A stretch of 27,549 nt of DNA. Source: Bacteroidota bacterium. Lineage in GTDB: Bacteria > Bacteroidota > Bacteroidia > UBA8524. A program made the translations under genes and the position numbers. The notes below the pieces were generated by a model that worked only from the letters and a program-made list of their open reading frames with translations, had not been told where the DNA came from and ran no database searches. Location: positions 15,102-42,650 of the forward strand of contig DQHT01000109.1 of assembly GCA_003531115.1 (NCBI GenBank), read 5' to 3'. Shown here piece after piece: positions 1,463 through 25,997 of the stretch (position 1 is the stretch's first letter; every line of letters starts with the position of its first letter).

Positions 1463-2179
1463 TTGATCAAAAAGTTATCCATCGTTATTCCCGCTTACAA
1501 TGAGGGAAGAACCATTCACTTCATCCTTGATAAGGTAAAAGATGTTGTGCTTATTGGCGACATTGAAAAGGAAGTTATTATCGTGAACGACTGCTCAAAA
1601 GATAATACCGTGGAGGCCGTTGAGAAGTATATGGCCGATAATCCCGAACTGGCGATCACCTTTTATTCGCACGAAGTGAACAAGGGTAAAGGAGCAGCGC
1701 TTCATACAGGTATTGAAAAGGCTACAGGCGATGTTGTCATCATACAGGATGCAGATCTTGAATACGACCCGCGTGAATACAATGATGTGTTAAAACCTTT
1801 TCGTGAGAGAGTAGCCGATGTGGTATACGGATCGCGATTTATGGGTGGTAATCCTCACCGTATTCTGTTCTTTTGGCATACGATCGGGAATAAGTTCCTG
1901 ACTCTTTTGTCGAATATGTTCACCAACCTGAACCTTACTGACATGGAAACCTGTTATAAGGCGTTTAAAAGGCAAATCATCCAGGGTCTTGATCTAAAAG
2001 AGAAACGTTTTGGTTTTGAGCCGGAGGTTACAGCGAAAATTGCGCGTATTGAAAATATCCGGATCTATGAAGTGGGGATCTCCTATTATGGCCGTACGTA
2101 TGAAGAAGGGAAAAAAATAGGCTGGAGAGATGGGTTCCGGGCTATCTGGTGTATCCTCAAATACAATCTATTTCTCTAA
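1463..2179 (+). CDS. GT2 family glycosyltransferase (dolichyl/polyprenyl-phosphate sugar synthase-like)
   Basis: This is a 238-residue GT-A fold glycosyltransferase of family 2, most like DPM1/GtrB-type enzymes that move a sugar from a nucleotide donor to polyprenyl phosphate at the inner membrane. The N-terminus has the [11 protein letters not shown] strand-loop (5-15), VNDCSKD (41-47) for the nucleotide, and QDADLEYDP (95-103) carrying the DxD-like metal site D96/D98. YGSRFMGG (122-129) is also typical of the family. There are no C-terminal membrane helices, so it is the short soluble form. The reading frame starts with TTG at 1463; no in-frame ATG precedes the conserved strand. It ends inside the convergent receiver gene, overlapping it by 12 bases. 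Donor and acceptor cannot be read from the sequence. The GT2 assignment is firm; the polyprenyl-phosphate acceptor is an inference. Confidence 0.92.
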
Positions 2180-2548
2180 GAGGTCCTTCAACTCTTTTAC
2201 ATTCAGCGGTTTTTTGATAAACTCAGCAACCAGAGGATTGGCTTTGGCTTTGGAAATATCACCAAAATCAAGCGATGACGATACCATAAAAATGCGGGTG
2301 TTTTCTTTATTGATATGGGTCATTTGCTCATAAACTTTTAAAAAATCGAAGCCGTCCATTTCCGGCATTTGAATGTCCAAAAGTATAATATTGGGTATCA
2401 CTGTATTCTTTGCCAGGCTTTCCAGGGCTTCCCTTGCGGTGGTAAAATGAACAATATGTTCACTGATGCCGCTGAGCCGGATCAATTTTTCATGCAGAAA
2501 AAGATCTATTTCATTGTCGTCGACAAGCATGATATATGGTAATTCCAT
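2168..2548 (-). CDS. Single-domain response regulator (CheY-like REC)
   Basis: This 126-residue protein is a complete receiver domain with no output domain. Its acidic pocket is D10/D11, the phosphoacceptor is D58 in [12 protein letters not shown]90-S92 occupies the switch Ser/Thr position and K113 in KKP is the conserved lysine. It is the last gene of the five-gene operon: one base separates its ATG from the stop of the REC-kinase upstream. It is therefore a likely phosphorylation partner of one of the two kinases in the same transcript, acting by protein-protein contact or as a relay. Its 3' end overlaps the convergent glycosyltransferase by 12 bases. The REC fold is certain; the partner is inferred from gene order. 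Confidence 0.93.
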
Positions 2549-2549
2549 C

Positions 2550-3641
2550 TCAGTTCGATAAATTAGGTAATACTAGTTCAAAGGAAGTGCCTTCTCCATA
2601 TACGGAATGCACCTTGATCTCGCCTCCGATTTTGGACAAGGCTTCTTTTACGATGTAAAGGCCAATTCCGGTTCCGGGTGTCCTGTTCAAAGTTTTCGTA
2701 CGGAAGAACATTTTAAAAATACTTTCCAAATGTTCCTGGAGGATTCCTACGCCATTGTCTTTGATCTGAATGATGGCTTTTTGGGCGTCGGATTTGATCA
2801 TGATATCCACTTCCGGGTTGCTGGCATCATTTTTTTGATATTTGATGGCATTGGATATCAGGTTGCTCAGAATAACATGGATTCGGAATTCATCGCTGTG
2901 AAAGGGCGCATCCTGCTGTACATTGATATGAAAATTTACAGTAGGGTCCGTATTTTTTAAGGTTTCGACGACTTCCTGAACCAGAGATTCAAACATCACC
3001 TGGCCATGATTGGATTCGGCACGGGCATTCTGGTAATATTCGATGATGTTTTGAATAAAGCTGTCGAGCTTTTGAACGCTTCGTTCTATCATGTCGAGAT
3101 AGACATAGGGATCCCCGTTACCTTTTTCCAGCCGGGATAATTCCACCAGACCGAGTATGGACATCAGAGGTGCACGAAGGTCATGCGACGCGCTGTAAAC
3201 AAAGCGATTCAGTTCGTCGTTTGTTTTGATCAGCTCTTCATTTTTGATTTTGAGTTCCTTTTTAACGCGAAACGCCTCATAGGAAGAGTCAATGATGTTT
3301 TTCAGATTCTGGGGATCCCAGGGTTTAACAACATATTGATTGATTTTTCCTTTGTTTACCGCATCGATGATGGTTTGTGAATTCGTGTAGGCGGTAATCA
3401 GGATGCGAACCACATCCGGATGTTTCTTTTGGATCTTTTCAAAAAAGTCGACTCCGGAAACCTTAGGCATCCGCTGATCAGCGAGAGCTACATGGATCTC
3501 GATTTCATCTAATAAACGGTAAGCTTCGTTGGCATCGGATACGGTGTATATCTCGAAATCGCGACGAAAACTGGCTTTGAATGCCTTGAGGTTATTGTCT
3601 TCATCGTCGATATACAGAATACGGGCACGTTCTTTACTCAT
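2550..3641 (-). CDS. Hybrid REC-histidine kinase (N-terminal receiver, HisKA, HATPase)
   Basis: This is a 363-residue cytoplasmic kinase with no membrane segment. Residues 6-125 are a receiver with D12/D13, phosphoacceptor D55 in ADQRMP and K106 in VVKPWD. A helical linker (125-148) leads to a HisKA domain with H153 in SASHDLRAPL. The ATPase domain has N260/N264 in the N box, DNGVGI (295-300) and GTGIGL (323-328). Input therefore appears to be phosphorylation of its own receiver rather than ligand binding. By eye, the receiver is about 45% identical without gaps to the stand-alone receiver encoded at 8878, which points to a common origin. Seven bases separate this gene from the 7TMR kinase upstream and one base from the REC gene downstream, so the three are probably co-translated parts of one relay. 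Confidence 0.94.
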   Translation of the reverse strand: MSKERARILYIDDEDNNLKAFKASFRRDFEIYTVSDANEAYRLLDEIEIHVALADQRMPKVSGVDFFEKIQKKHPDVVRILITAYTNSQTIIDAVNKGKINQYVVKPWDPQNLKNIIDSSYEAFRVKKELKIKNEELIKTNDELNRFVYSASHDLRAPLMSILGLVELSRLEKGNGDPYVYLDMIERSVQKLDSFIQNIIEYYQNARAESNHGQVMFESLVQEVVETLKNTDPTVNFHINVQQDAPFHSDEFRIHVILSNLISNAIKYQKNDASNPEVDIMIKSDAQKAIIQIKDNGVGILQEHLESIFKMFFRTKTLNRTPGTGIGLYIVKEALSKIGGEIKVHSVYGEGTSFELVLPNLSN

Positions 3642-3648
3642 AGCAGGA

Positions 3649-5799
3649 TCAGTTCGTATTCAATTTTGCGGTGACGGGCAAGGTAATGATAAATTCAGTT
3701 CCCTTTCCCACTTCAGTATTAACCTGGATGTGGCCACCATGCGTTTCGATGATTTTAAACACGATCGACAATCCGAGTCCGGTACCTTCACCCACATCTT
3801 TGGTTGTGAAAAAGGGTTCGAATATCCGCGCTTTTACCTCATCGGTCATCCCAGGACCAGTATCCTTTATTGAAAAAAAGACGTTTTCCTCGTCGGTGGT
3901 AGAAGTGATTGTGAGCACATGCTTTTCATCGATAGACTTTCCCTTCATCGCCTGGAGCGCATTGCTTAAAATATTCATAAAGATCTGATTGATCTTGCCC
4001 GGGAAACATTCCACCGGAGGCAAATCAGCCAGATCGGTAACGACTTCCACATTATCGGGAATAGAATTTCGTAACAGTACGAGTGTTGACTGCAAACCTT
4101 CATTCAGGTCGGCAGGTTTTAGATCTGACTCATCAAGCCGGCTAAATGTTTTTAGTCCTTTTACGATCTCGGAGGTCCTTAGTGCACCATCTTCTATACC
4201 TACAAGAAGTTCGCTGATCTCATTCCGGATATATTCAAAATCGATCTCAGTTTTGAAATTTTCGACTTCTTTAATACGTGCTTCGACATCGTCAGCTGAA
4301 AATGCCTGGCTGTATTGATCAATGATGGACAACATATCCTGGATGTCCAAACGCAGGGGCTGAACATTGGCGCTTACGAAATTGATCGGATTATTGATCT
4401 CATGGGCAATTCCGGCAGTAAGCTGGCCAAGGGAGGCCATTTTTTCAGCGTCTACCAGTTGAGCCTGGGTTTCTTTCAAATGATTCAGGGTTACCACCAA
4501 TTCTTCATTGGTTTCCTGCAACTCAATGGTTCTTTCCTGCACCTTTTGTTCCAGGTAGGCATTTTGTTCCCGGATGATCCGCTCATTTTCCAAAGAAATA
4601 CGGAGGGCTTCTGCCTGCGAGGCTTCTTTTTCTTTTTTGAGGATATTGATACGGTCTGCCAGAGCGAAGGAAAGTAACATTACTTCGATCGCAGAGCCAA
4701 CCGGCATCATGTAATACGTGAAGTTATTGTATGGCAATACGCCAAAATCCTTCATAACATAGAGGGCAACGCCAAAAAGGAATACGGCCCATGCAATGGA
4801 GAAGAAGAAGGCGGGTCTGTCGCCGGTACGTGCAATGCGAACCGCCATGATCATCATTGAGGTAGCCGCAACCACAGCACATGCTTCAATAAGAATAAAA
4901 CTTCCGGCGAAAACGCCGAAGAATGAAAGCAGCGTACCTAATAAATAACCGGCAGTTACCCCATAAAAGAGTTTGTCAAATATTTTGGAATGCCGTCGGG
5001 TATGCAGGAATACCCGCATAAACTGCATGCCACTGATGCCCACAAGGGAGGGAAAGAGGAAACTATTGTAAACAGCGATTACCGGTAAATTGGGCCAGAG
5101 GTACTGAAAACTGTAGCCATGAATACTGGATTGTGTAAGGATCACAAACAGTAAATAGATCACATAATAGAAATATGAACGGTCGCGGGTGCTGATGTAG
5201 ATAAAAGCGTTGTACAACAACATTACTAACATGATCCCCAGATAGATCCCGGAAAAAACGTCCTTCTTTTTGGTTAATGCAAGCATGGCCTGGCGCGACC
5301 CGATCAGCATAGGAACCTGGACATTTTCTTTCGCCTGCACTTTCAGGAAGAGTGTTTTGGTGCTTTCGGGTTCTATTTCAAACACATAGAGGTAATTCGG
5401 ATCGTAATAGAGCCTTTCTTTAAACGTACGGTGTTCTCCCAGATCAATAGAAATATAGCCAGAATCCGTTTTATCAAAAAACTCAACATAGTCGAGGATG
5501 GGCTGAGCTACCTGAAGCACATAGTCGGATTCCCGGGTTTCGTTCTTCACCTCAACTTTCAGCCAAAAGGTAGAGGAGCTGATCCCAAAATTCGGTACAT
5601 CCTTGTGTACCGGAATAAAGTCCAGGCCCTCAACGGCATGAATAGTTGCTGTATCTTGGGTAAATTCAAGATAGGAGCAATTGTTTTTTACATGCACCAC
5701 CTGATGCTCATCAACCAACCTGATGGTTTGTCCAAAAACAAGGGACGATTGCTGGACCAAAATCAGAACAAGGAGTAAAGGGTAGATTCCTCTGATCAT
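3649..5799 (-). CDS. 7TMR-DISM membrane sensor histidine kinase
   Basis: This 716-residue sensor kinase has a signal peptide (about 1-23) followed by an extracytoplasmic 7TMR-DISMED2-type beta domain (about 26-175), the family thought to bind carbohydrate-like or other small ligands. Seven hydrophobic helices (about 182-385) form the 7TMR-DISM core. A coiled coil (about 386-450) connects to HisKA with H466 in GIAHEINNP. The HATPase domain has N609/N613, DTGPGM (646-651) and GEGTGLGL (670-677). The ATG lies in an ATGA overlap with the stop of the acyltransferase-like gene upstream, indicating translational coupling. In this context it is a candidate sensor for a product of the two upstream enzymes, but the ligand is not visible in sequence. 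Confidence 0.94.
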   Translation of the reverse strand: MIRGIYPLLLVLILVQQSSLVFGQTIRLVDEHQVVHVKNNCSYLEFTQDTATIHAVEGLDFIPVHKDVPNFGISSSTFWLKVEVKNETRESDYVLQVAQPILDYVEFFDKTDSGYISIDLGEHRTFKERLYYDPNYLYVFEIEPESTKTLFLKVQAKENVQVPMLIGSRQAMLALTKKKDVFSGIYLGIMLVMLLYNAFIYISTRDRSYFYYVIYLLFVILTQSSIHGYSFQYLWPNLPVIAVYNSFLFPSLVGISGMQFMRVFLHTRRHSKIFDKLFYGVTAGYLLGTLLSFFGVFAGSFILIEACAVVAATSMMIMAVRIARTGDRPAFFFSIAWAVFLFGVALYVMKDFGVLPYNNFTYYMMPVGSAIEVMLLSFALADRINILKKEKEASQAEALRISLENERIIREQNAYLEQKVQERTIELQETNEELVVTLNHLKETQAQLVDAEKMASLGQLTAGIAHEINNPINFVSANVQPLRLDIQDMLSIIDQYSQAFSADDVEARIKEVENFKTEIDFEYIRNEISELLVGIEDGALRTSEIVKGLKTFSRLDESDLKPADLNEGLQSTLVLLRNSIPDNVEVVTDLADLPPVECFPGKINQIFMNILSNALQAMKGKSIDEKHVLTITSTTDEENVFFSIKDTGPGMTDEVKARIFEPFFTTKDVGEGTGLGLSIVFKIIETHGGHIQVNTEVGKGTEFIITLPVTAKLNTN

Positions 5800-6482
5800 C
5801 TGAGCTTCATTTTTAAATGGTATTCGATATGCAATGTAGATTTAGCAGTTATTTCATCAAAATCCTGATCTGGATTTTCACGAAGACTTAACATACGCAA
5901 ACGATCTTCTTCGTTCGCCGTTCCAAGGTTCTTCGCATTCAAAATACCCAATACACGTGCAATATAATTTTCATTTGGATAAACAAACTGTCCGGAATCG
6001 CCGAGTGTTTCATCGACCACAAACCCGACACGCCGGAACATACTCAGGGTATAATCAGCACAAATGCCCACCATGGTTGAAATTCCGACTTGAGAACAAA
6101 TGGCAATTCCTGCACGGGAAAGCAATAAGCTCAATCCAATACCCGCTACATCTTTGGCATTCCATAAAGCACACAATTCACCCACTCCTTCAGGAAGATA
6201 GGAAGCAACTATAGTGTGAATATTCGGATCCCGGTAGCCAATGGCCCTTTCAACGGGAAGTTGATGGATACCGTCGGCTTTTTGCATGCGAATTCCACCA
6301 ACCATTTTGCCCTGCCTGTTTATCACGACTACGCAATAAACGCACTCCATCGACGACCATTCCTCGTTATTAGAGGTAATATTCGTGATGCCGTAATCTT
6401 TCAATACGCGCACATGGCCAGCGGCATATTCCCTACATAACTCTGGTTCGTCAATCGCCCGGAATGCTTTAAAAATGAACAT
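5796..6482 (-). CDS. GNAT-fold putative acyltransferase, LuxI/FeeM-like
   Basis: This 228-residue protein resembles the acyltransferase fold shared by GNAT enzymes, LuxI autoinducer synthases and FeeM N-acyl amino acid synthases. Visible parts are a beta strand pair with VVVINRQGKMVGGIRMQ (51-67), the segment GVGELCALW (99-107) matching the strand that carries a conserved Glu in LuxI/FeeM proteins, a long helix rich in small residues (113-130), and STMVGICADYTLSMFRRVGF (135-154), which is GNAT-like with an RxGF turn. The last 40 residues are charged and unrecognised. Its ATG overlaps the E1-nitroreductase stop by 14 bases and its stop overlaps the sensor kinase ATG by 4. Acyl transfer is supported by fold-like motifs only. 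A signal-synthase role is inference; a plain N-acetyltransferase remains possible. Confidence 0.7.
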   Translation of the reverse strand: MFIFKAFRAIDEPELCREYAAGHVRVLKDYGITNITSNNEEWSSMECVYCVVVINRQGKMVGGIRMQKADGIHQLPVERAIGYRDPNIHTIVASYLPEGVGELCALWNAKDVAGIGLSLLLSRAGIAICSQVGISTMVGICADYTLSMFRRVGFVVDETLGDSGQFVYPNENYIARVLGILNAKNLGTANEEDRLRMLSLRENPDQDFDEITAKSTLHIEYHLKMKLR

Positions 6483-8748
6483 CTCCCCTGATTAGTATAT
6501 TTTTATTGAGAAGTCGAAGCGAACGCTTGCTGGGTGGTTCGCACCAGCTCAGGCGGAATAAAAACACCCCTCTTCTCGAACGCAATATGGTGGTTATTTT
6601 ATCTATTTCTGCTTTTAATAGCCGGATTTCTTTGATTATTTCTGAATCCAGTCCATTATTTGCCTTTTCAATCCGGTTAAAAAAGAACAATGGAGCTGAA
6701 ACCGGATGCACGGACCAACCCTGAACATTGGCTGTTATCCATGCCCGCAAGATTGCAGCTCCCAATGCTAAACTTGATTCCGGAATGGCGGGATCACAGG
6801 TGATCAAACATAAGGCAGATGAAGCTTTTACGGCATCTATTCCTCCTTGCGCAAATCCGTCACCAACTTTCCACTGGCGGATAAGTTCCAATACCTCCGG
6901 ATCACTGCTTACGTGAAGCCCCGCTTCCTGAACCGGCGTCAGTTCCATTGTTCCTACATCAAGTCCGTCGCGGGTTTCAAGGGCTTCTTTTTCAGTCCAG
7001 CGAACCTCGTCGTGGAAAAATTCATAATGTGCCTGGGCATTCAGTGAACGGATCTTTTCAGTCTGTCCTACTACCTTAGCCCATGTTTCGAGACTGTTTT
7101 TATCGGAAAAAATATCGGCCTGCAAGCCGGGAATTTCAGCAACATTTTGCTGAATGGAGGTGATCAGCGATTCAGGAACAGGAACATAAGGCGCTTTTTT
7201 TCTGTTAGAACAGCGCATTTCTATACCCATAGCCAGTTCGCTGACTTTTAAACCCGGATCTTTTGTGATCTTAAAGGCAGCCACCAGCTGGTTTTTTCCT
7301 ATAGGATGAATTTCGACCCTATAGCCCATACGCCCGGCTGCCAGCCTTAAGGATTCAGAGCAGGCGCCTAAAGAAAGATAAGCCAGCGAATCATCATAAT
7401 CGGTCCAGGAATAAGTACGCGACTTTTCGTGGAACAAAAAGAGGTGTCCGTTCAAACTCACCCATTTCCAGGGCTGGTTATTTCCTGCCGAAGGGGCCAT
7501 AGAGGTTAAAGAGATCAGCGGGTCGATATCTTCTTCTTTTAAACCTCCTTTTTCCCAGGCAAGTTCGTTAAGGGTATGTTTGGCCTCATGGATCAGGTTT
7601 TCTGTGATAAGCGCAGGAAAGCTATATTTCTGAGGTATGAAGTGGAAGGATTTCTGGTCCTTATCCTGGATAAGCTGGTCAAGGTCTATAAAATAGCGTC
7701 CTGAATCGTGGAACTGATCCAAAAAGATCCTACGTACTGTATCTGCAGCCAGGGCGCCTCCCATGGCGACGGAAGTGGCCAATTGTGGCCATGTATGTAT
7801 GGTTTCTCCGATCTCTACCATCGATGCTTTCAAACGTTTACTGATCGTATCCATACCAAATATAGGAAGCATATAGGGTACTTTTTCCTCATTGGTCAGA
7901 TTATTCAGACCGGTAAGATCAAGATGGTCGACCCAGCCGTGCATGATCGGGCGTCCGGGTTCCAGATCAAAACGTTCTATATCGATCGTCCCCCGGTCGC
8001 TCATGTCCATAACCACAGGTATTTTCATGCTTCGTGCTTTTTCGCGGAGAAGAATCTTTATATCAATGCTATCGCACTCATCCACAACAAGGTCGAGGTC
8101 GCCTTCCCCGTTAAAAAAAGCATCCATATTTTCCCTTAACAGTCCTTCCGGAAAACAGCGAATTTTAAAATAGGGATCAATTTCAAGAATTTCACGGGCT
8201 ACTAACACGGTCTTATTCAGCCCCATATTGTGCAAACCCGTACGTATCCTGTTCAGGTTGGCCAATTCAAGCTCGTCGAAATCGGCAATACGGATCTCAC
8301 CACAAATACGTTCCATAGCCAGTACCAGGGAAATGGATTGCCCAACCGATAAACCGACCACGCCAATTTTTTTGGTCCGGAGCAGGGCTTGTTCGTTCAA
8401 TGTGATCTTGGGATTATTCGGACTGATTCGGGTAGCAACAAAGTCTTCTTCCTTCAGAATATGCACAAGTCTTCTGCTCCAGGGATAATATACCCAAATT
8501 CCATATTCAGCCGGATCGATCTTTTCAAAAAAATCTTCGATCGCTTTTTTCAGGCTTTCATCTTTTAGCTTTTTCTTTGGAAAACGCGATTTTAACATCT
8601 CACCTACCTGTGCATGTATGGTGTCATACACATGTACCGAGACATCCTTAAAAAGTGCTGCTAATTGTTGTTTACCTTCGGAACTACTGGGGTCAATAAA
8701 ATGAGGGACCCAATCTGAATCGGAACATTTTTGAAAAGCTAATTGCAT
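6469..8748 (-). CDS. E1/ThiF adenylyltransferase-nitroreductase fusion (Rv1355c/MoeY-like)
   Basis: This is a 759-residue two-enzyme fusion. After an N-terminal helical region (about 1-115), residues 120-345 form an E1/ThiF-type Rossmann adenylation domain. It has a divergent nucleotide loop IGVVGLSVGQS (128-138), ADFDELELANLNRIR (155-169) matching the DxDxxxxxNLNR motif, and VDECDS (222-227) at the position of the usual DxxDN motif. The CxxC zinc pairs of MoeB/ThiF are absent. Residues about 385-715 form a flavin nitroreductase-like domain with APSAGNNQPWKW (418-429), the FMN/substrate loop. The architecture matches the family around M. tuberculosis Rv1355c, whose MoeY (molybdopterin) name is weakly founded. 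It is the first gene of the five-gene operon. The likely chemistry is adenylation of a carboxylate plus a flavin redox step; the substrate is unknown. Confidence 0.88.
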   Translation of the reverse strand: MQLAFQKCSDSDWVPHFIDPSSSEGKQQLAALFKDVSVHVYDTIHAQVGEMLKSRFPKKKLKDESLKKAIEDFFEKIDPAEYGIWVYYPWSRRLVHILKEEDFVATRISPNNPKITLNEQALLRTKKIGVVGLSVGQSISLVLAMERICGEIRIADFDELELANLNRIRTGLHNMGLNKTVLVAREILEIDPYFKIRCFPEGLLRENMDAFFNGEGDLDLVVDECDSIDIKILLREKARSMKIPVVMDMSDRGTIDIERFDLEPGRPIMHGWVDHLDLTGLNNLTNEEKVPYMLPIFGMDTISKRLKASMVEIGETIHTWPQLATSVAMGGALAADTVRRIFLDQFHDSGRYFIDLDQLIQDKDQKSFHFIPQKYSFPALITENLIHEAKHTLNELAWEKGGLKEEDIDPLISLTSMAPSAGNNQPWKWVSLNGHLFLFHEKSRTYSWTDYDDSLAYLSLGACSESLRLAAGRMGYRVEIHPIGKNQLVAAFKITKDPGLKVSELAMGIEMRCSNRKKAPYVPVPESLITSIQQNVAEIPGLQADIFSDKNSLETWAKVVGQTEKIRSLNAQAHYEFFHDEVRWTEKEALETRDGLDVGTMELTPVQEAGLHVSSDPEVLELIRQWKVGDGFAQGGIDAVKASSALCLITCDPAIPESSLALGAAILRAWITANVQGWSVHPVSAPLFFFNRIEKANNGLDSEIIKEIRLLKAEIDKITTILRSRRGVFLFRLSWCEPPSKRSLRLLNKNILIRGDVHF

Positions 8749-8877: not shown

Positions 8878-9339
8878 ATGACACAATTATTAAATGTACT
8901 CTATGTGGATGATGAGCAGAATAACCTGCTTTCCTTCAAAGCGGCCTTCAGAAGAGACTTCAATGTCTTTACTGCCATATCCGGGCAGGAGGGTTTAGAC
9001 ATTGTAAAAAACGAAGACATCCATATTATCATAACGGATCAGCGGATGCCCAACATGACCGGTGTTGAATTCCTGCAAAAAGTTATTCCTGTCGCACCGG
9101 ACCCGATCCGGATTTTGTTAACCGGCTATAGCGATATCAATGCGGTTGTTGATGCCATCAATAAAGGAGAAGTATATCGCTACCTTACAAAGCCCTGGGA
9201 CAATGAATTTCTTAAAACGACAATACGCCAGGCTTATGAGGTGTTTATCCTGCGTCGTGAAAACGAGCGGCTCATTGATGAATTGAAACGGGCCAATGAG
9301 CAGTTGGAGTTTTATCTGCGCCAAAAGCTCCTTTCCTGA
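8878..9339 (+). CDS. Stand-alone response regulator with C-terminal coiled coil
   Basis: This 153-residue protein has a receiver domain (about 5-122) with a DDE acidic pocket in LYVDDEQNN, the phosphoacceptor Asp in ITDQRMPN and the conserved lysine in LTKPWD. A charged helix (about 122-150) follows and looks like a coiled coil or the stub of a lost output domain; there is no DNA-binding, kinase or cyclase domain. Without gaps, the receiver matches the N-terminal receiver of the REC-kinase at 2550-3641 at about 45% identity, including RRDF and DQRMP. Divergent from the five-gene operon across a shared control region, it is likely a further component of the same phosphorelay, which is an inference. 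A five-base gap separates it from the convergent phosphohexomutase. Confidence 0.93.
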   Translation: MTQLLNVLYVDDEQNNLLSFKAAFRRDFNVFTAISGQEGLDIVKNEDIHIIITDQRMPNMTGVEFLQKVIPVAPDPIRILLTGYSDINAVVDAINKGEVYRYLTKPWDNEFLKTTIRQAYEVFILRRENERLIDELKRANEQLEFYLRQKLLS

Positions 9340-11136: not shown

Positions 11137-11457
11137 TCAGGGCTTCGGGGTTTCTTCTTTTTTCTTTTCCGGACTGCAACATCCCTTTTTTTCTTCCTTG
11201 TTGCAGGTTTTTCCTTCTTTTTCTTTTACCTCTTTTTTGCAACAGGATTTGCCTTCTTCAGCACCTTTTTTGCAGCACTTTTTGTCTTTCACCTCCCCTT
11301 TAACAGGCACTGGTGCCGGAACGGGAGCAGGTGTTGGAGCAGGAGCGGGGGCAGTTACAGGCGGTTTACCTTCTTTTTTCTCTTCCGGTTTTGACTGGGC
11401 TGACGCGAATGCCACGCCGGCGATCAAAATTCCTAATGTAAGGATGTATCTTTTCAT
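11137..11457 (-). CDS. Small exported Pro/Ala- and Cys/Lys-rich protein
   Basis: This is a 106-residue protein of unrecognised family. A clear signal peptide (about 1-20, ending ASAQ) is followed by a Lys/Glu patch, a low-complexity Pro-Ala-Val stretch (about 34-52) and a tail rich in Lys and Glu. Seven cysteines in the tail are mostly in CC pairs: DKKCCKKG, GKSCCKKE, GKTCNKE and KGCCSPEKK. The repeated CC-basic units suggest metal binding or disulfide cross-linking in the periplasm, but no domain is recognised. A TATATTTG box lies just upstream and a strong terminator just downstream, so it can be expressed alone. Codon use is skewed by the low-complexity composition. That it is a real gene is supported by signal peptide, promoter and terminator; its function is unknown. 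Confidence 0.75.
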   Translation of the reverse strand: MKRYILTLGILIAGVAFASAQSKPEEKKEGKPPVTAPAPAPTPAPVPAPVPVKGEVKDKKCCKKGAEEGKSCCKKEVKEKEGKTCNKEEKKGCCSPEKKKEETPKP

Positions 11458-12161: not shown

Positions 12162-13436
12162 CTAAAATACTCCCCGGTATGCCAGGGCTTTAGAAACTTT
12201 ATCGATCGCCACGATATAGGCGGCAATACGCAGGCTGGTGCCATATTTTTGCGACGCAGCGTATACTTCTTCAAAGGCCTGTTTCATGGTCCTGTCGGCG
12301 CGACGGTGTACCCGTTCTTCAGTCCAGTAGTAGCCAATTTTGTTTTGAACCCATTCGAAGTATGACACGGTAACTCCACCGGCATTGGCTAAAATATCCG
12401 GAACGACCATCACGTTGTTCTCATTCAGGATAAGATCTGCGTTGGCGGAAGTCGGACCGTTTGCACCTTCCACAATGAGTTTGGCTTTGATTTTAGCCGC
12501 ATTATGTTTGGTAATCTGGTCTTCCATTGCTGCAGGAACCAGCACATCCACATCGAGTTCAAGGATTTCTTCGTTGGTAATACGGCTTTCCGCGTTGAAA
12601 CCTTCGAGGGTTCCTCCGTTTTGATTGCGATAGGCAATGGCTGCTTCAATATCTATCCCTTTTGGATCATAATAGCCTCCGGTAATATCCGAAATGGCCA
12701 CAATTTTTAATCCCTGAAGTTGGATCAGTTTTGCAGAAATAGAACCCACGTTACCAAATCCCTGAACGGCACAAGTAGCCTCCATCGGATTGATGCCCAA
12801 TTTGCCCATGGCAGCACGGGCGGTAACCATTACACCACGTCCTGTTGCTTCAACACGACCGGATGATCCGCCAAGTACCAATGGTTTTCCTGTTGTAACA
12901 GCCGGAGTATAAAGTCCCTGTATTTTAGAATATTCGTCCATCAACCAGGCCATTTCCTGAGGTCCTGTGTTCATGTCGGGAGCCGGAATGTCTTTTTCCG
13001 GACCAAAAACATCACGCATTGCGCCGGTATAGGCACGGGTGAGTCGTTCAAGTTCGCCTTTCGACATACTGCGCGGATCACATTTGATCCCTCCTTTACC
13101 ACCACCGTATGGGATACCCACCACGGCACATTTCCAGGTCATCCATGCTGCCAAAGCTTTCACTTCATCAAGATGCACATCCATCGAATAACGAATTCCT
13201 CCCTTGGAAGGACCCATCGCTTGAGAATGAACAACGCGATACCCTTCAAAAACCTGAACGGTGCCGTCATCCATAATTACAGGCAGGCTCACGATCACCG
13301 TTTTTGCAGGCGATTTGAGCACATTGTAGCTGTTTTTGTCTAGTCCTAAAATTCTAGCGGCCTCATCGAACCGGGACATCATCGATTCGAAAGGATTCTC
13401 CTGATTTTTAATTGGAGCAGGTTCTTGATAACTCAT
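12162..13436 (-). CDS. gdhA: Glu/Leu/Phe/Val-type glutamate dehydrogenase
   Basis: This 424-residue hexameric-type dehydrogenase links 2-oxoglutarate plus ammonia to glutamate using NAD(P)H. The substrate domain has KGGIRYS (78-84), WKCAVVGIPYGGGKGG (101-116) with the catalytic lysine K114, and PAPDMNT (151-157) with D154. The Rossmann domain has GFGNVGS (226-232). Length and motifs fit the RocG/GudB-like clade rather than E. coli GdhA, so NAD use and a catabolic or reversible role are likely but not certain. It has the best promoter in the window (TTG-N19-TAACTTTG) with a 13-bp palindrome over the -33 box, suggesting regulated expression. The psd gene follows after nine bases. Confidence 0.95.
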   Translation of the reverse strand: MSYQEPAPIKNQENPFESMMSRFDEAARILGLDKNSYNVLKSPAKTVIVSLPVIMDDGTVQVFEGYRVVHSQAMGPSKGGIRYSMDVHLDEVKALAAWMTWKCAVVGIPYGGGKGGIKCDPRSMSKGELERLTRAYTGAMRDVFGPEKDIPAPDMNTGPQEMAWLMDEYSKIQGLYTPAVTTGKPLVLGGSSGRVEATGRGVMVTARAAMGKLGINPMEATCAVQGFGNVGSISAKLIQLQGLKIVAISDITGGYYDPKGIDIEAAIAYRNQNGGTLEGFNAESRITNEEILELDVDVLVPAAMEDQITKHNAAKIKAKLIVEGANGPTSANADLILNENNVMVVPDILANAGGVTVSYFEWVQNKIGYYWTEERVHRRADRTMKQAFEEVYAASQKYGTSLRIAAYIVAIDKVSKALAYRGVF

Positions 13437-13459
13437 ATTCTAGCCTTAAAAACTGCCTG

Positions 13460-13489
13460 CAAAGTTATTTTTATTCATGCATTTAGCAA
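13460..13489 (-). promoter_or_regulatory. Bacteroidota promoter (TTG-N19-TAACTTTG) for glutamate dehydrogenase
   Basis: On the minus strand TTG (complement of 13487-13489) and TAACTTTG (complement of 13460-13467) are 19 bases apart, which is the consensus arrangement. The -7 box ends 23 bases before the ATG at 13436. Confidence 0.7.
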
Positions 13490-13498
13490 GTGACTTGC
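13486..13498. promoter_or_regulatory. 13-bp palindrome over the gdhA -33 box, operator candidate
   Basis: GCAAGTGACTTGC has perfect six-base arms around one central base and covers the -33 triplet of the glutamate dehydrogenase promoter. The single-base centre and the absence of a following T run argue against a terminator for cdsA and for a dimeric protein site. Confidence 0.4.
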
Positions 13499-13515
13499 TC
13501 CCGTGGAAAAAAAAT

Positions 13516-14337
13516 TTAAAACCTAAGTAAAAAGAGGTAAATATGGATGGCAGGCAATGCAATGAAAAAGCCGTCAAAACGATCGAGCAAACCGCCATGT
13601 CCCGGCATGATCGTTCCTGAATCTTTGATGCCCAATTGGCGTTTCCACATGGATTCTACCAGATCACCGAGGGTACCAAAAACAGCGATCAGGCCACCGA
13701 TTATCATCCAGTGCCGGAGTGAAAAACTAAGTGAATACAGCGAAAGTACATAAGCAGCGCCCAGACAAAGCAGTGCTCCCCCGATCAGTCCCTCCCAGGT
13801 TTTTTTAGGTGATACTGCCGGAAACAAGGCGTGCCTGCCCAATTTTCGTCCGGATAAATAGGCCCCGGTATCATTGGTCCAAAATAGGATGAAAATACCG
13901 AGTAGCGGTGAAAGTCCCGAGCCTGAAATGTGCCATAGGTCGATTGACGTGAGTAAAACGAAAGGCACAACGATATAAAGGAATGAAAGGAAAAGCCAGG
14001 CAGCATCCTGAAAATTTGATTCTGCAGGCTGAAACAGTCCAAGAAGGATCACAAGAAGAGGCAGAGCAAATAAAAATGGAAGATACCACAACAGGGAGCT
14101 TTCTCCCTGGAGCCCATAGGCACTGATGATAAAAAGCAGGGTGCCTCCGATAACGCCAAGGAGTTTGGCCGGGCTTCCACTTTTTACCTGCGCATTTAGA
14201 AATTCCCATATACAAACGGCAGTGACCAGGGCAAAAAGAGGAATAAAATATTTTATTCCGGCGAGGACTGTCCCGATAACCAGCCCGATATAGACCGCAC
14301 CCGAAAGAGATCTTTTTACAAAATTATTCATGCTCAT
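13516..14337 (-). CDS. cdsA: Phosphatidate cytidylyltransferase (CDP-diglyceride synthase)
   Basis: CdsA makes CDP-diacylglycerol from phosphatidic acid and CTP, the branch point for phospholipids. This 273-residue polytopic protein is hydrophobic throughout. It carries the family signature in its C-terminal half: WTNDTGAY (153-160), SPKKTWEGLIGG (176-187), GDLVESMWKRQLGIKDSG (224-241) and PGHGGLLDRFDG (245-256), the last with the catalytic Asp/metal residues. Its ATG overlaps the end of the CPBP protease gene by 14 bases, so the two are one operon. The MSMNNF start could also be the second Met. The downstream gene gdhA has its own promoter. Confidence 0.97.
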   Translation of the reverse strand: MSMNNFVKRSLSGAVYIGLVIGTVLAGIKYFIPLFALVTAVCIWEFLNAQVKSGSPAKLLGVIGGTLLFIISAYGLQGESSLLWYLPFLFALPLLVILLGLFQPAESNFQDAAWLFLSFLYIVVPFVLLTSIDLWHISGSGLSPLLGIFILFWTNDTGAYLSGRKLGRHALFPAVSPKKTWEGLIGGALLCLGAAYVLSLYSLSFSLRHWMIIGGLIAVFGTLGDLVESMWKRQLGIKDSGTIMPGHGGLLDRFDGFFIALPAIHIYLFLLRF

Positions 14338-24458: not shown

Positions 24459-25997
24459 ATGTCTTTGATGTCGTCATTTTTCTCCTGGTATTTCAGGAAA
24501 CGCTGGCCCGAACTGGAAAACCAGATCCGGATGGCAGACGACGTTCAAAAAACAACTTTGCTATCGCTGATGAATGATGCGAAGTATACCGAGTTTGGCA
24601 AGCTCTACGATTTTAAATCCATCAATACTTACGAAACCTTCCGATCGCGCGTACCTATTCGCGATTATGAAAGTATGAAACCGTTTATAGAACGGACCAT
24701 GAAGGGTGAACAGAACGTGATCTGGCATTCAGACATTCGTTGGTTTGCGAAATCGAGCGGCACCACCTCGGATAAGAGCAAGTTTATACCGGTGAGTTTT
24801 GAAGCCCTGGATAAATGTCATTATCAGGGCGGCCGGGATGTATTGACCTTATACAGCAATTCCTTCCAGGAAACCGAGATATTTAGCGGCAAGAGCCTTG
24901 TAATTGGTGGTAGTCATAAGGTGAATACCTTCTCAGAAAATTCATTTTATGGAGACCTTTCGGCCGTGGTGATATCAAATACCCCCTTCTGGGTTGATTT
25001 TTTGAGAACGCCTGATAAATCGATCGCCTTAATGGAGGAGTGGGAACAAAAGCTCGAAATGATGGCCAATGCTACCCTCAATGAGGACGTAACCACTATT
25101 TCCGGTGTTCCAACCTGGACCCTGGTTTTGATCGAACGCCTTTTTGCCATGACGGGTAAAAGGGATTTGCACGATATCTGGCCAAACCTTGAACTGTACA
25201 TTCACGGAGGCGTAAGTTTTACCCCCTACCGGGAACGTTTCCAAAAATTGATGCCATCAAAGGGGATACGCTATTTGGAGACCTACAATGCTTCCGAAGG
25301 ATTTTTTGGGATACAGGGCGCTTTTAACGGGGAGGAAATGTACCTCATGCCAGGTTATGGAATTTTCTTCGAGTTTGTCAAAGCCGAGCATATCCACAAT
25401 GAAAATGCACATGCCATTCCGCTCTGGGAGGTCGAAAAAGGAGTGAATTATGCAGTGGTTATCAGTACCAATGCGGGTTTGTGGCGCTATATAATTGGCG
25501 ATACCATCAAGTTCAGTTCGCTTAAACCTTACCGCTTCAGCATCACAGGAAGAACCAAGCTATTTATAAATGCCTTTGGAGAAGAGCTGGTAATTGAAAA
25601 TGCAGAACGGGCCATTGCTAAGGCCTGTGAGCTGACCAATGCGGTTGTCAGCGATTATACAGCAGCCCCGGTTTATATGGAATTGGGCCAGGATGCCGGT
25701 CACGAATGGTTGATCGAATTTGAAAAAATGCCGGAGAATCTGGAGGAATTCAACAAGGTACTCGATACCACCTTAAAGAATGTAAATTCGGATTACGAGG
25801 CTAAGCGACATAAGGATATCGCCTTAAAAGCGCCAAAGATCGTTTGCCTTAAAAAAGGCGCCTTTTTGAATTGGATGCGGGAACGGGGCAAATTAGGAGG
25901 CCAGCATAAGGTTCCCCGTCTGTCTAATAACCGTTCGATCGTTGATGAATTACTGAAGATCGAAGGAAAAGAGATGCCCCTTAGCGGGCAGGTTTAA
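24459..25997 (+). CDS. GH3 superfamily acyl-acid-amido synthetase
   Basis: This 512-residue member of the GH3 family belongs to the ANL-type adenylating superfamily, whose plant members join amino acids to jasmonate or auxin through an acyl-adenylate. The nucleotide loop SSGTTSDKSK (99-108), ETYNASEGFFG (274-284), GDTIKF (347-352) with the ribose-binding Asp, and GRTK (364-367) are all present. LGGQHKVPR near the C-terminus carries a lysine typical of the mobile domain. The protein has full family length and appears intact. Bacterial GH3 proteins are widespread in Bacteroidota, but their substrates are mostly unknown. It shares a strand with the M28 peptidase but has its own promoter-like sequence, and overlaps the convergent membrane protein by 17 bases. 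Confidence 0.93.
   Translation: MSLMSSFFSWYFRKRWPELENQIRMADDVQKTTLLSLMNDAKYTEFGKLYDFKSINTYETFRSRVPIRDYESMKPFIERTMKGEQNVIWHSDIRWFAKSSGTTSDKSKFIPVSFEALDKCHYQGGRDVLTLYSNSFQETEIFSGKSLVIGGSHKVNTFSENSFYGDLSAVVISNTPFWVDFLRTPDKSIALMEEWEQKLEMMANATLNEDVTTISGVPTWTLVLIERLFAMTGKRDLHDIWPNLELYIHGGVSFTPYRERFQKLMPSKGIRYLETYNASEGFFGIQGAFNGEEMYLMPGYGIFFEFVKAEHIHNENAHAIPLWEVEKGVNYAVVISTNAGLWRYIIGDTIKFSSLKPYRFSITGRTKLFINAFGEELVIENAERAIAKACELTNAVVSDYTAAPVYMELGQDAGHEWLIEFEKMPENLEEFNKVLDTTLKNVNSDYEAKRHKDIALKAPKIVCLKKGAFLNWMRERGKLGGQHKVPRLSNNRSIVDELLKIEGKEMPLSGQV
25975..25990. terminator. Weak hairpin over two convergent stop codons
   Basis: TGCCC-CTTAGC-GGGCA spans the end of the GH3 and membrane protein genes. On the minus strand it is followed by a T-rich stretch (ATCTCTTTTCC). 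The stem is only five pairs and the T run is broken, so this is a weak, possibly shared terminator. Confidence 0.3.

Follow-up and report, generated by a model that had tools for sequence, protein, structure and literature searches.

Putative N-acyl oxazolone synthases share their history with the sensor half of an adjacent receptor kinase in a Bacteroidota gene cassette

We analysed a 27,549-nucleotide stretch of DNA from a Bacteroidota bacterium (assembly GCA_003531115.1, contig DQHT01000109.1, positions 15,102 to 42,650 of the forward strand; the whole stretch is called the window below). It carries a six-gene cassette in which a putative N-acyl amino acid synthase (TrzA) and an E1-oxidase fusion (TrzS) lie beside a 7TMR-DISM receptor histidine kinase and proteins with receiver (REC) domains. 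In the 64 TrzS-type cassettes compared, the sensor half of the kinase has a history in common with the enzymes, different from that of its own kinase half, and enzymes and sensor half appear to be exchanged in place, as one unit, among related bacteria. The cassette is probably a pheromone (quorum-sensing-like) system, with a signal derived from an N-acyl amino acid and a kinase that senses this product.

Five open reading frames (ORFs) on the minus strand run in the order TrzS, TrzA, 7TMR-DISM kinase, REC-HK and REC, adjacent frames first overlapping by 14 and 4 bases and then lying 7 and 1 bases apart, exactly as reported for 2168..8748 in a first-pass annotation made from the sequence alone, which had called them a five-gene operon. 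The five genes stand, but the unit is larger: the divergently oriented receiver gene REC2 (8878-9339, plus strand) had been overlooked. The gene order recurs across Bacteroidota loci more than expected by chance. The features are as follows.

6469..8748, minus strand: TrzS/OxzB-like protein, N-terminal ThiF (E1) adenylating cyclase and C-terminal flavin mononucleotide (FMN) flavin-dependent oxidase (759 amino acids; NF005901, PF00899)
5796..6482, minus strand: TrzA-like N-acyl amino acid synthase, putative; GNAT fold, nearest to acyl-homoserine lactone (AHL) synthases and FeeM (228 amino acids; predicted structure)
3649..5799, minus strand: 7TMR-DISM receptor histidine kinase (716 amino acids; PF07696, PF07695, HATPase_c)
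4651..5685, minus strand: sensor half of the kinase, DISMED2 at residues 39-166 and 7TM at residues 181-383 (sliding windows, tree tests; DISMED2 part RetS-like)
4450..4599, minus strand: history-switch zone of the kinase, residues 401-450, from enzyme-like to relay-like (window correlations)
2550..3641, minus strand: REC-HK, a REC-HisKA-HATPase kinase of the relay (363 amino acids; domain matches, motifs)
2168..2548, minus strand: REC, single-domain receiver of the relay and least constant cassette member (126 amino acids; PF00072, 55 bits)
8878..9339, plus strand: REC2, divergently oriented single-domain receiver, the sixth gene (153 amino acids; PF00072, 70 bits)

Co-inheritance of the enzymes and the sensor half

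Protein distances were compared among cassettes with a kinase of at least 660 amino acids and a TrzA of at least 200 (127 cassettes, some being the same locus in two collections; 106 also have REC-HK and REC2). After kinase halves 95% alike were dropped, 91 cassettes were kept, a set from which S-adenosylmethionine (SAM)-methyltransferase types and cassettes without REC2 fall out. Distances were correlated within a sensor-enzyme block (DISMED2-7TM, r = 0.68; DISMED2-TrzA, 0.50; 7TM-TrzA, 0.58) and within a relay block (kinase half-REC-HK, 0.84; kinase half-REC2, 0.81; REC-HK-REC2, 0.80), while correlations across the blocks ranged from 0.28 to 0.45, including those of the sensor with its own kinase half (0.38 and 0.45). 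Given kinase half and REC-HK in partial Mantel tests, TrzA remained correlated with 7TM (0.51) and DISMED2 (0.43), each with the lowest p value that 499 permutations allow, and TrzA-REC2 fell to 0.02 (p 0.23). Among the 64 TrzS-type cassettes, TrzA correlated at 0.71 with 7TM, 0.57 with DISMED2 and 0.32 with the kinase half, the last of which reached 0.86 with REC-HK; the ThiF and oxidase halves of TrzS went with TrzA and the sensor at 0.62-0.75 and with the kinase half at 0.45 and 0.38.

Trees gave the same division. Length-matched trees of the 91 cassettes had quartet agreements of 0.63 for 7TM-TrzA, 0.44 for 7TM-kinase half and 0.82 for kinase half-REC-HK (chance 0.33). With 64 taxa, the log-likelihood cost to the sensor data was 502 for the TrzA tree and 939 for that of TrzS, as against 3966 for REC2, 4089 for REC-HK and 4121 for the kinase half of the same protein. 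Kinase data ranked the trees in another order (REC-HK, 254; REC2, 411; TrzS, 1501; sensor, 1833; TrzA, 2112), and TrzA data favoured the sensor tree (682) and the TrzS tree (1191) over that of the kinase half (3753). We rely on these likelihood differences and not on p-values; the 1000 resamplings of the IQ-TREE approximately unbiased test were flagged as too few.

The change of history could be placed with 50-residue windows in the 64 cassettes: the TrzA and relay correlations change places between kinase residues 401 and 450, just past the 7TM domain (Pfam end 383). Kinase windows starting at 361, 401, 441 and 481 had r values of 0.52, 0.26, 0.29 and 0.28 with TrzA and of 0.27, 0.55, 0.76 and 0.79 with REC-HK alone. 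TrzS windows ranged over 0.37-0.59 with TrzA and 0.16-0.46 with the relay, the first 130 residues being mixed, and REC2 windows over 0.58-0.80 with the kinase half and 0.17-0.25 with TrzA (0.82 versus 0.25 for REC2 as a whole). The relay reference first used included REC-HK and REC2, and a repeat against independent references had the same outcome. Evolutionary rate is not the cause, because a conserved enzyme window (TrzS 121-170, mean distance 0.28) goes with TrzA and divergent relay windows (HK 481-530, 0.62; REC-HK 201-250, 0.66) go with the relay. Since REC2 lies beyond TrzS and follows the kinase block, enzymes and sensor were swapped between co-evolving flanks.

Exchange between relatives

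Replacement can be followed in 117 cassette pairs, not independent of one another, in which the relay is at least 75% identical. In 81 of these, sensor identity was below 45% and mean TrzA identity 45%, as compared with a mean TrzA identity of 81% in the other 36; over all 117, sensor identity correlated at 0.87 with that of TrzA and at 0.48 with that of the relay. At least one swapped partner was found for 47 of the 58 cassettes that have a close relay partner.

Pedobacter sp. KBW06 (L015) and P. caeni (L056) hold the cassette at a common chromosomal place, with identities of 74-99% in the left flank and 74-95% in the right (small antisense ORFs left out). The relay is alike (REC-HK 97%, REC 92%, kinase half 86%) and the swapped part is not (TrzS 45%, TrzA 42%, DISMED2 21%, 7TM 40%, sensor 30%). 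Each has two REC2 copies; identity is 67% for the copy adjoining TrzS and 87% for the outer copy. In a second pair, L200 and L223 (genus label g220), REC-HK (93%) and REC2 (92%) are close, sensor (32%) and TrzA (65%) are not, and the tailoring differs as well, ThiF plus oxidase versus none.

Tandem REC2-like genes upstream of TrzS were seen in five Pedobacter loci (L015, L016, L024, L056 and L059).

Occurrence in Bacteroidota and beyond

Cassette members were tallied by tblastn in three partly overlapping collections: (a) 71 loci of named genomes that a TrzS query retrieved, (b) an even sample of 395 Bacteroidota genomes and (c) 195 genomes of one family, that of genome G126. Thresholds in set (b) were E<=1e-20 for TrzS-like proteins, E<=1e-10 for TrzA and at least 500 bits for kinase orthologues, and in set (c) E<=1e-120 for the kinase; kinases were scored for the best 2 candidates per genome in (b) and the best 5 in (c), and a lower-ranked orphan could be missed.

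Co-occurrence of synthase and kinase was strict. In set (b), TrzS-like proteins occurred in 11 of the 395 genomes and TrzA in 13, the kinase orthologue being found in the same 13 and adjacent by coordinates in all; no orphan acyltransferase or kinase orthologue was found among the 395 genomes and their two best kinase candidates each, scores dropping from 502 to 306 bits at the next match. TrzA and the 7TMR-DISM kinase were both present in 67 of the 71 loci of set (a) and both absent from the other four (L051, L062, L067 and L075); L051 and L075 come from one metagenome-assembled genome together with L053, which is a full cassette. In set (c) the kinase occurred in 58 of 195 genomes with TrzA upstream in 57, whatever the tailoring enzyme, and the contig of the sole exception (L219) begins inside the kinase. 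A search of a second class found the kinase in 1 of 197 genomes, the one already known. The signalling genes of the cassette are therefore not accidental in Bacteroidota, and the pairing of enzymes with signalling genes proposed at first pass, once scored in this way, was borne out; the pattern named there as refuting it, an enzyme pair mostly without kinases, is the reverse of the one observed.

The relay is nearly as constant. REC-HK was present in 60 of 67 loci in set (a), 11 of 12 beyond the window in set (b) and 55 of 58 in set (c). Among the remainder, L021, L022, L035 and L068 run into contig ends; in L040 a REC2-like receiver follows the kinase, the contig ends 0.6 kb on and REC-HK was not scored; and a REC-PAS-HisKA_3-HATPase kinase replaces REC-HK as an alternative relay in L027 (15110-16528), L061 (15128-16504) and L092 (3244-4653), the last being the set (b) variant. 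REC2 usually belongs to the cassette (60/67, 10/12 and 48/58). All seven misses in set (a) meet a contig end on the side where relatives hold REC2, and in set (c) L178, L197, L214 and L219 are cut short upstream, whereas L088, L173, L176, L177, L222 and L224 are not. REC was found in 45/67, 3/12 and 31/58.

Outside Bacteroidota, 7 actinobacterial records were fetched from the 22 plasmid records matched by TrzS. None of the seven TrzS contexts had a relative of either kinase within 6 kb (tblastn), and no histidine kinase is named in the 6 annotated ones. A TrzA relative was recognised in one (L233), so these plasmids are poor comparisons and may encode different pathways.

Several loci met in this survey deserve mention. 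Rhodococcus plasmids L228 (3829-4809) and L232 (3872-4807) have a GGDEF protein two genes upstream of TrzS, recalling Rv1354c, and one Streptomyces plasmid a 'sensor domain-containing protein' 5.4 kb from the TrzS gene. ThiF relatives on Streptomyces plasmids L230 (7056-8105) and L231 (7044-7679), which have a beta-ketoacyl-ACP synthase III or a GNAT protein as neighbour, are perhaps other acyl-oxazolone variants. In L051, the TrzS paralogue without TrzA or kinase adjoins a beta-eliminating lyase (12702-14120; PF01212, 261 bits) of the family of tryptophanase and tyrosine phenol-lyase, and L075 has a gene of similar size (12635-14020). The cassette fragment L021, on a contig labelled Candidatus Saccharibacteria, is probably a misbinned Bacteroidota contig.

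The biosynthetic enzymes

TrzS matches NF005901, the 'Rv1355c family', at 722.2 bits (cut-off 476; positions 8-717 of 722) and the ThiF profile PF00899 at 60.8 bits (cut-off 28.1). Its nitroreductase half lies just below the Pfam cut-off (22.2 versus 23.5 bits) and matches the Acg-like family NF047509 (E 2e-30, 106 bits, under that family's cut-off of 199); among PDB sequences the top match was the Acg nitroreductase 2ymv (residues 412-481, E 1.3e-5), and the Acg-like stretch APSAGNNQPW is present in this half. An E1-nitroreductase fusion, as first annotated, is thus what the profiles return. Motifs include GVVGLSVG (129-136) and DFDELELANLNR (156-167). D226 of the ThiF region (LVVDECD) is the same in all 64 relatives aligned and may correspond to D217, the ATP-site aspartate of M. 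smegmatis TrzS, in which R540 and Q651 are the FMN oxidase residues (PMC12856293).

At E 1e-3, TrzA had no match among the Pfam and NCBIfam families, and a PDB sequence search with its alignment gave nothing significant. When its predicted structure (pLDDT 92) was searched with Foldseek, AHL synthases and FeeM filled the first ten rows; with a second structural aligner, ordinary GNAT acyltransferases tie with these. The earlier label 'LuxI/FeeM-like' therefore probably holds for the predicted fold and does not hold for the sequence family; lacking a profile match, TrzA is filed not as LuxI but as a protein that probably shares its fold.

A ThiF cyclase fused to a flavin-dependent oxidase within NF005901, adjoined through the 14-base overlap by a putative N-acyl amino acid transferase of GNAT fold, marks the pair as OxzB/TrzS members; judged from sequence, the window enzymes are putative N-acyl oxazolone synthases of the recently characterised OxzAB/TrzAS kind. 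Rv1356c-Rv1355c were characterised in 2025 as TrzA, which N-acylates L-Trp, and TrzS, which performs ATP-dependent cyclisation and then O2-dependent desaturation; together they yield N-acyl tryptazolones, and OxzAB of Pseudoalteromonas rubra is cited as a relative (PMC12856293). TyzACB directs tyrazolone synthesis in M. tuberculosis (PMC10404671), and related N-acyl tyrosine clusters have been described (PMC12479983). What had been proposed as an unknown signal would accordingly have a partly recognisable chemistry, the window product being predicted from relatives that make N-acyl oxazolones (PMC12856293, PMC10404671).

Interchangeable tailoring enzymes

The 55 classable cassettes of set (c), from which truncated loci L178, L197 and L219 were left out, comprise 22 with ThiF plus oxidase, 12 with ThiF and no recognised oxidase (including L207, with an unrecognised C-half), 8 with an ICMT, 3 with a SAM methyltransferase (all three without REC-HK), 2 with an FAD_binding_4 oxidase and 8 with none (including L204, with a 0.6-kb gap without assigned gene). 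In set (b), L111 and L112 likewise have an ICMT-like carboxyl methyltransferase at the TrzS place (PF04140, 71 and 66 bits). The E1-nitroreductase described at first pass as one half of the enzyme pair is thus present in the window without being a constant of the family: other tailoring enzymes can take its place, so that the core consists of acyltransferase and kinase.

The idea that a separate oxidase completes the pathway in ThiF-only genomes was rejected, as no oxidase-half relative was found at E<=1e-5 in the 17 genomes searched (of 18; G415 was left out) and both positive controls matched. Distant ICMT relatives (29-37%) occur elsewhere in 3 of 8 'none' genomes; one also occurs in a TrzS-type genome, and those in 'none' genomes are therefore not informative.

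Two observations concern unusual members. FAD_binding_4 oxidases lie between TrzA and kinase in L180 (6184-7800) and L191 (4278-5885); enzymes of the vanillyl-alcohol-oxidase type often act on phenols, and these would fit an N-acyl tyrosine substrate. L193 (6296-8260) has two different TrzA genes in a row ahead of the sensor, possibly a transition between types.

Receptor kinase and relay

DISMED2 (89.8 bits, cut-off 22) and 7TM (177.8 bits, cut-off 29) domains precede the kinase domains, HATPase_c scoring 90.7 bits and HisKA falling just below the Pfam cut-off with its H-box LTAGIAHEINNPI at 460-472; the protein is thus a 7TMR-DISM receptor kinase, the sole protein above the PF07695 cut-off in its genome. 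REC-HK has the REC Asp motif ADQRMP (54-59) and the H-box SHDLR (152-156), and REC the motif LLDIQMP (56-62). These domain searches agree with the membrane sensor, REC-kinase and REC named in the first-pass annotation. The best structural match of the DISMED2 part is the RetS periplasmic domain. GPCR-like matches of the 7TM part (Wntless, GPR156, CaSR) were dropped as evidence because helical bundles reach such Z scores by general arrangement.

A pheromone system and its alternatives

In the mechanism that we favour, TrzA would link an acyl group to an amino acid, and TrzS would use ATP to cyclise the carboxylate, forming an oxazolone ring, and FMN and oxygen to desaturate that ring. The product, by analogy with characterised relatives, would be an N-acyl oxazolone resembling an acyl-homoserine lactone; it would leave the cytoplasm, and the neighbouring receptor kinase would detect it through its DISMED2/7TM half and pass the signal to the REC-kinase and two single-domain receivers, a phosphorelay order suggested by domain content. 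Either tailoring step, ring closure or carboxyl methylation, would abolish the charge of the carboxylate and make the signal membrane-permeable. Lineages would trade the maker and sensor unit, sometimes with its tailoring chemistry, and keep kinase half, relay and REC2, giving rise to distinct signal types. That the sensor changes with the acyltransferase and its own kinase half does not is expected if the sensor reads the pathway product. Kinase adjacency and a sensor co-inherited with the enzymes likewise support the self-contained synthesis-and-sensing system first proposed, and we infer that the kinase would bind the product. With less assurance, we lean towards a broader view, in which Bacteroidota hold a widespread small-molecule pheromone family with a core of FeeM/LuxI-fold N-acyltransferase and 7TMR-DISM kinase, whose tailoring enzymes and sensor halves are traded by recombination to give private signal types.

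A number of results weigh against the pheromone reading. Enzymes and sensor half are contiguous, and linkage could hold them together without function. Every gene tree rejects all others in the 64-taxon data, so exchange has also taken place inside each block. TrzA-REC-HK given the kinase half (0.15) and TrzA-kinase half given REC-HK (0.08) also reach the permutation floor, and 17 of 500 random half-samples over all types failed to favour 7TM-TrzA over 7TM-kinase half. The blocks are hardly apart in the 27 non-TrzS cassettes (TrzA-7TM 0.65 versus TrzA-kinase half 0.62; DISMED2-TrzA 0.51 versus DISMED2-kinase half 0.47). Tailoring type is weakly related to sensor divergence at equal relay distance (0.43 versus 0.37; 0.36 versus 0.32), ICMT and 'none' types share sensors, and the recognised members of the cassette include no DNA-binding output gene. 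Actinomycetota tryptazolones are enriched in cell pellets and not in the supernatant (PMC12856293).

An unlikely alternative is that the product is an antimicrobial or toxic electrophile, the kinase a sensor for self-induction or self-protection and the diversity an arms race, not a language. Lantibiotic autoinduction is a precedent for such a self-inducing sensor, and product sensing would yield equal co-inheritance. Stieleria N-acyl tyrosines are described as antimicrobial, and oxazolones as reactive, being hydrolysed by acid and opened by alcohols (PMC12856293). Several variants, however, would yield an untailored N-acyl amino acid only, and no transporter or immunity gene was seen between enzymes and relay, a weak objection given that most flanking ORFs are without annotation.

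We find it doubtful that the kinase reads an external or envelope cue and merely times oxazolone synthesis, the block being co-inherited as neighbours through recombination in the H-box region and REC2. This would suit the contiguity of enzymes and sensor, the similar histories in non-TrzS cassettes and the high conservation of the segment after the switch (HK 441-490, mean distance 0.21), where recombination is likely; and RetS, the best structural match, is not known to sense a self-made lipid. Yet REC2, beyond TrzS in most cassettes, follows the kinase block, so that flanks are kept and only the middle moves; the divergent relay segments still track the relay, and there is no evident reason for a cue sensor to change with the acyltransferase.

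It is very improbable that TrzA or TrzS contacts the cytoplasmic face of the 7TM part and reports metabolic state with no diffusible signal: 7TM does follow TrzA more closely (0.71) than the periplasmic part does (0.57), but DISMED2, a presumed periplasmic domain, likewise goes with TrzA rather than with the kinase, something that cytoplasmic contact would not require, and unrelated tailoring families replace TrzS. Accidental clustering of metabolic and signalling genes, which the seven plasmid contexts might suggest, is refuted for Bacteroidota by recurrence in the 127 full-length cassettes and by the co-occurrence in 13 of 395 genomes, the two sets of 13 being identical (a single choice among C(395,13), 1.3e-24 with phylogeny ignored).

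Relation to known systems

TrzAS of mycobacteria and Rhodococcus and P. rubra OxzAB have, like the window, an N-acyltransferase and a fused ThiF cyclase/flavin-dependent oxidase of NF005901, but the main text of PMC12856293 describes no receptor kinase at TrzAS loci, to which the window adds a 7TMR-DISM kinase and relay. TyzACB has three activities in common with the window (PMC10404671); its ThiF and oxidase are separate proteins, whereas here they are fused, or ThiF occurs without an oxidase relative (17/17 such genomes). The AHL resemblance of N-acyl oxazolones has been remarked upon (PMC12856293, PMC10404671), and a possible signalling role mentioned in view of nearby cyclic-di-GMP genes (PMC12856293). 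The word 'kinase' is absent from the main text of PMC12856293, PMC10404671 and PMC12479983, and no description of the cassette was found among the titles and abstract starts listed from the open-licence PMC literature, subscription papers and preprints being outside the scope.

A close parallel is ComQXPA of Bacillus subtilis, in which comQXP is polymorphic, ComX and ComP are paired, and maker and sensing part of the kinase diversify jointly by in-place replacement beside a conserved relay (PMC4408185). Joint polymorphism of maker and sensor half, with kinase half and relay separate, was found here in the 64 TrzS-type cassettes and in all 91. The history break of ComQXPA lies inside comP. The ComQXPA signal, ComX, is a modified peptide processed by ComQ, whereas the present cassette has a small-molecule N-acyltransferase and changeable tailoring in a Gram-negative phylum.

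Small-molecule synthases beside membrane receptor kinases are found in LuxM-LuxN, AinS-AinR, CqsA-CqsS and RpfF-RpfC. These have different synthases and receptors, are not known to include a DISM receptor, and have no known recombining maker-sensor module of this kind. The Pseudomonas 7TMR-DISM kinases RetS and LadS combine DISMED2, 7TM and kinase and, unlike the window kinase, are not known to be linked to a signal synthase. The coupling of the enzymes with a co-inherited receptor kinase was seen only in Bacteroidota.

The physiological role of N-acyl oxazolones has been called a major unresolved question by the TrzAS group (PMC12856293). With a dedicated receptor kinase that is inherited together with the synthase, this question becomes directly testable in harmless soil bacteria, and the co-inheritance indicates which receptor goes with each biosynthetic variant. 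If the pheromone reading is right, oxazolone lipids would gain their missing function, and Bacteroidota would have a widespread, diversifying chemical language not yet recognised there, with the pherotype signature known from Gram-positive peptide systems built from small-molecule chemistry.

Other features of the window

The palindrome GTTGAATAATTCAAC in the divergent gap between TrzS and REC2 was rejected as an operator, as the nearest relatives (L012 and L013) have no such repeat. An exact match to the Bacteroidota-type promoter consensus TAnnTTTG faces REC2 at 12-16 bases in the window, L012, L013, L015, L016, L018 and L024; as a general REC2 promoter it was set aside, with matches in 7 of the 60 intergenic regions listed (of 97). 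At 24459-25997 (plus strand), 15 kb from the cassette and with no link to it shown, lies a gene for a GH3-family protein (PF03321, 207 bits); plant GH3 enzymes conjugate acids to amino acids, and this protein is possibly another amino-acid-conjugating enzyme. A small Lys/Cys-rich protein without Pfam match is encoded at 11137-11457 (minus strand) and has a signal-peptide-like start.

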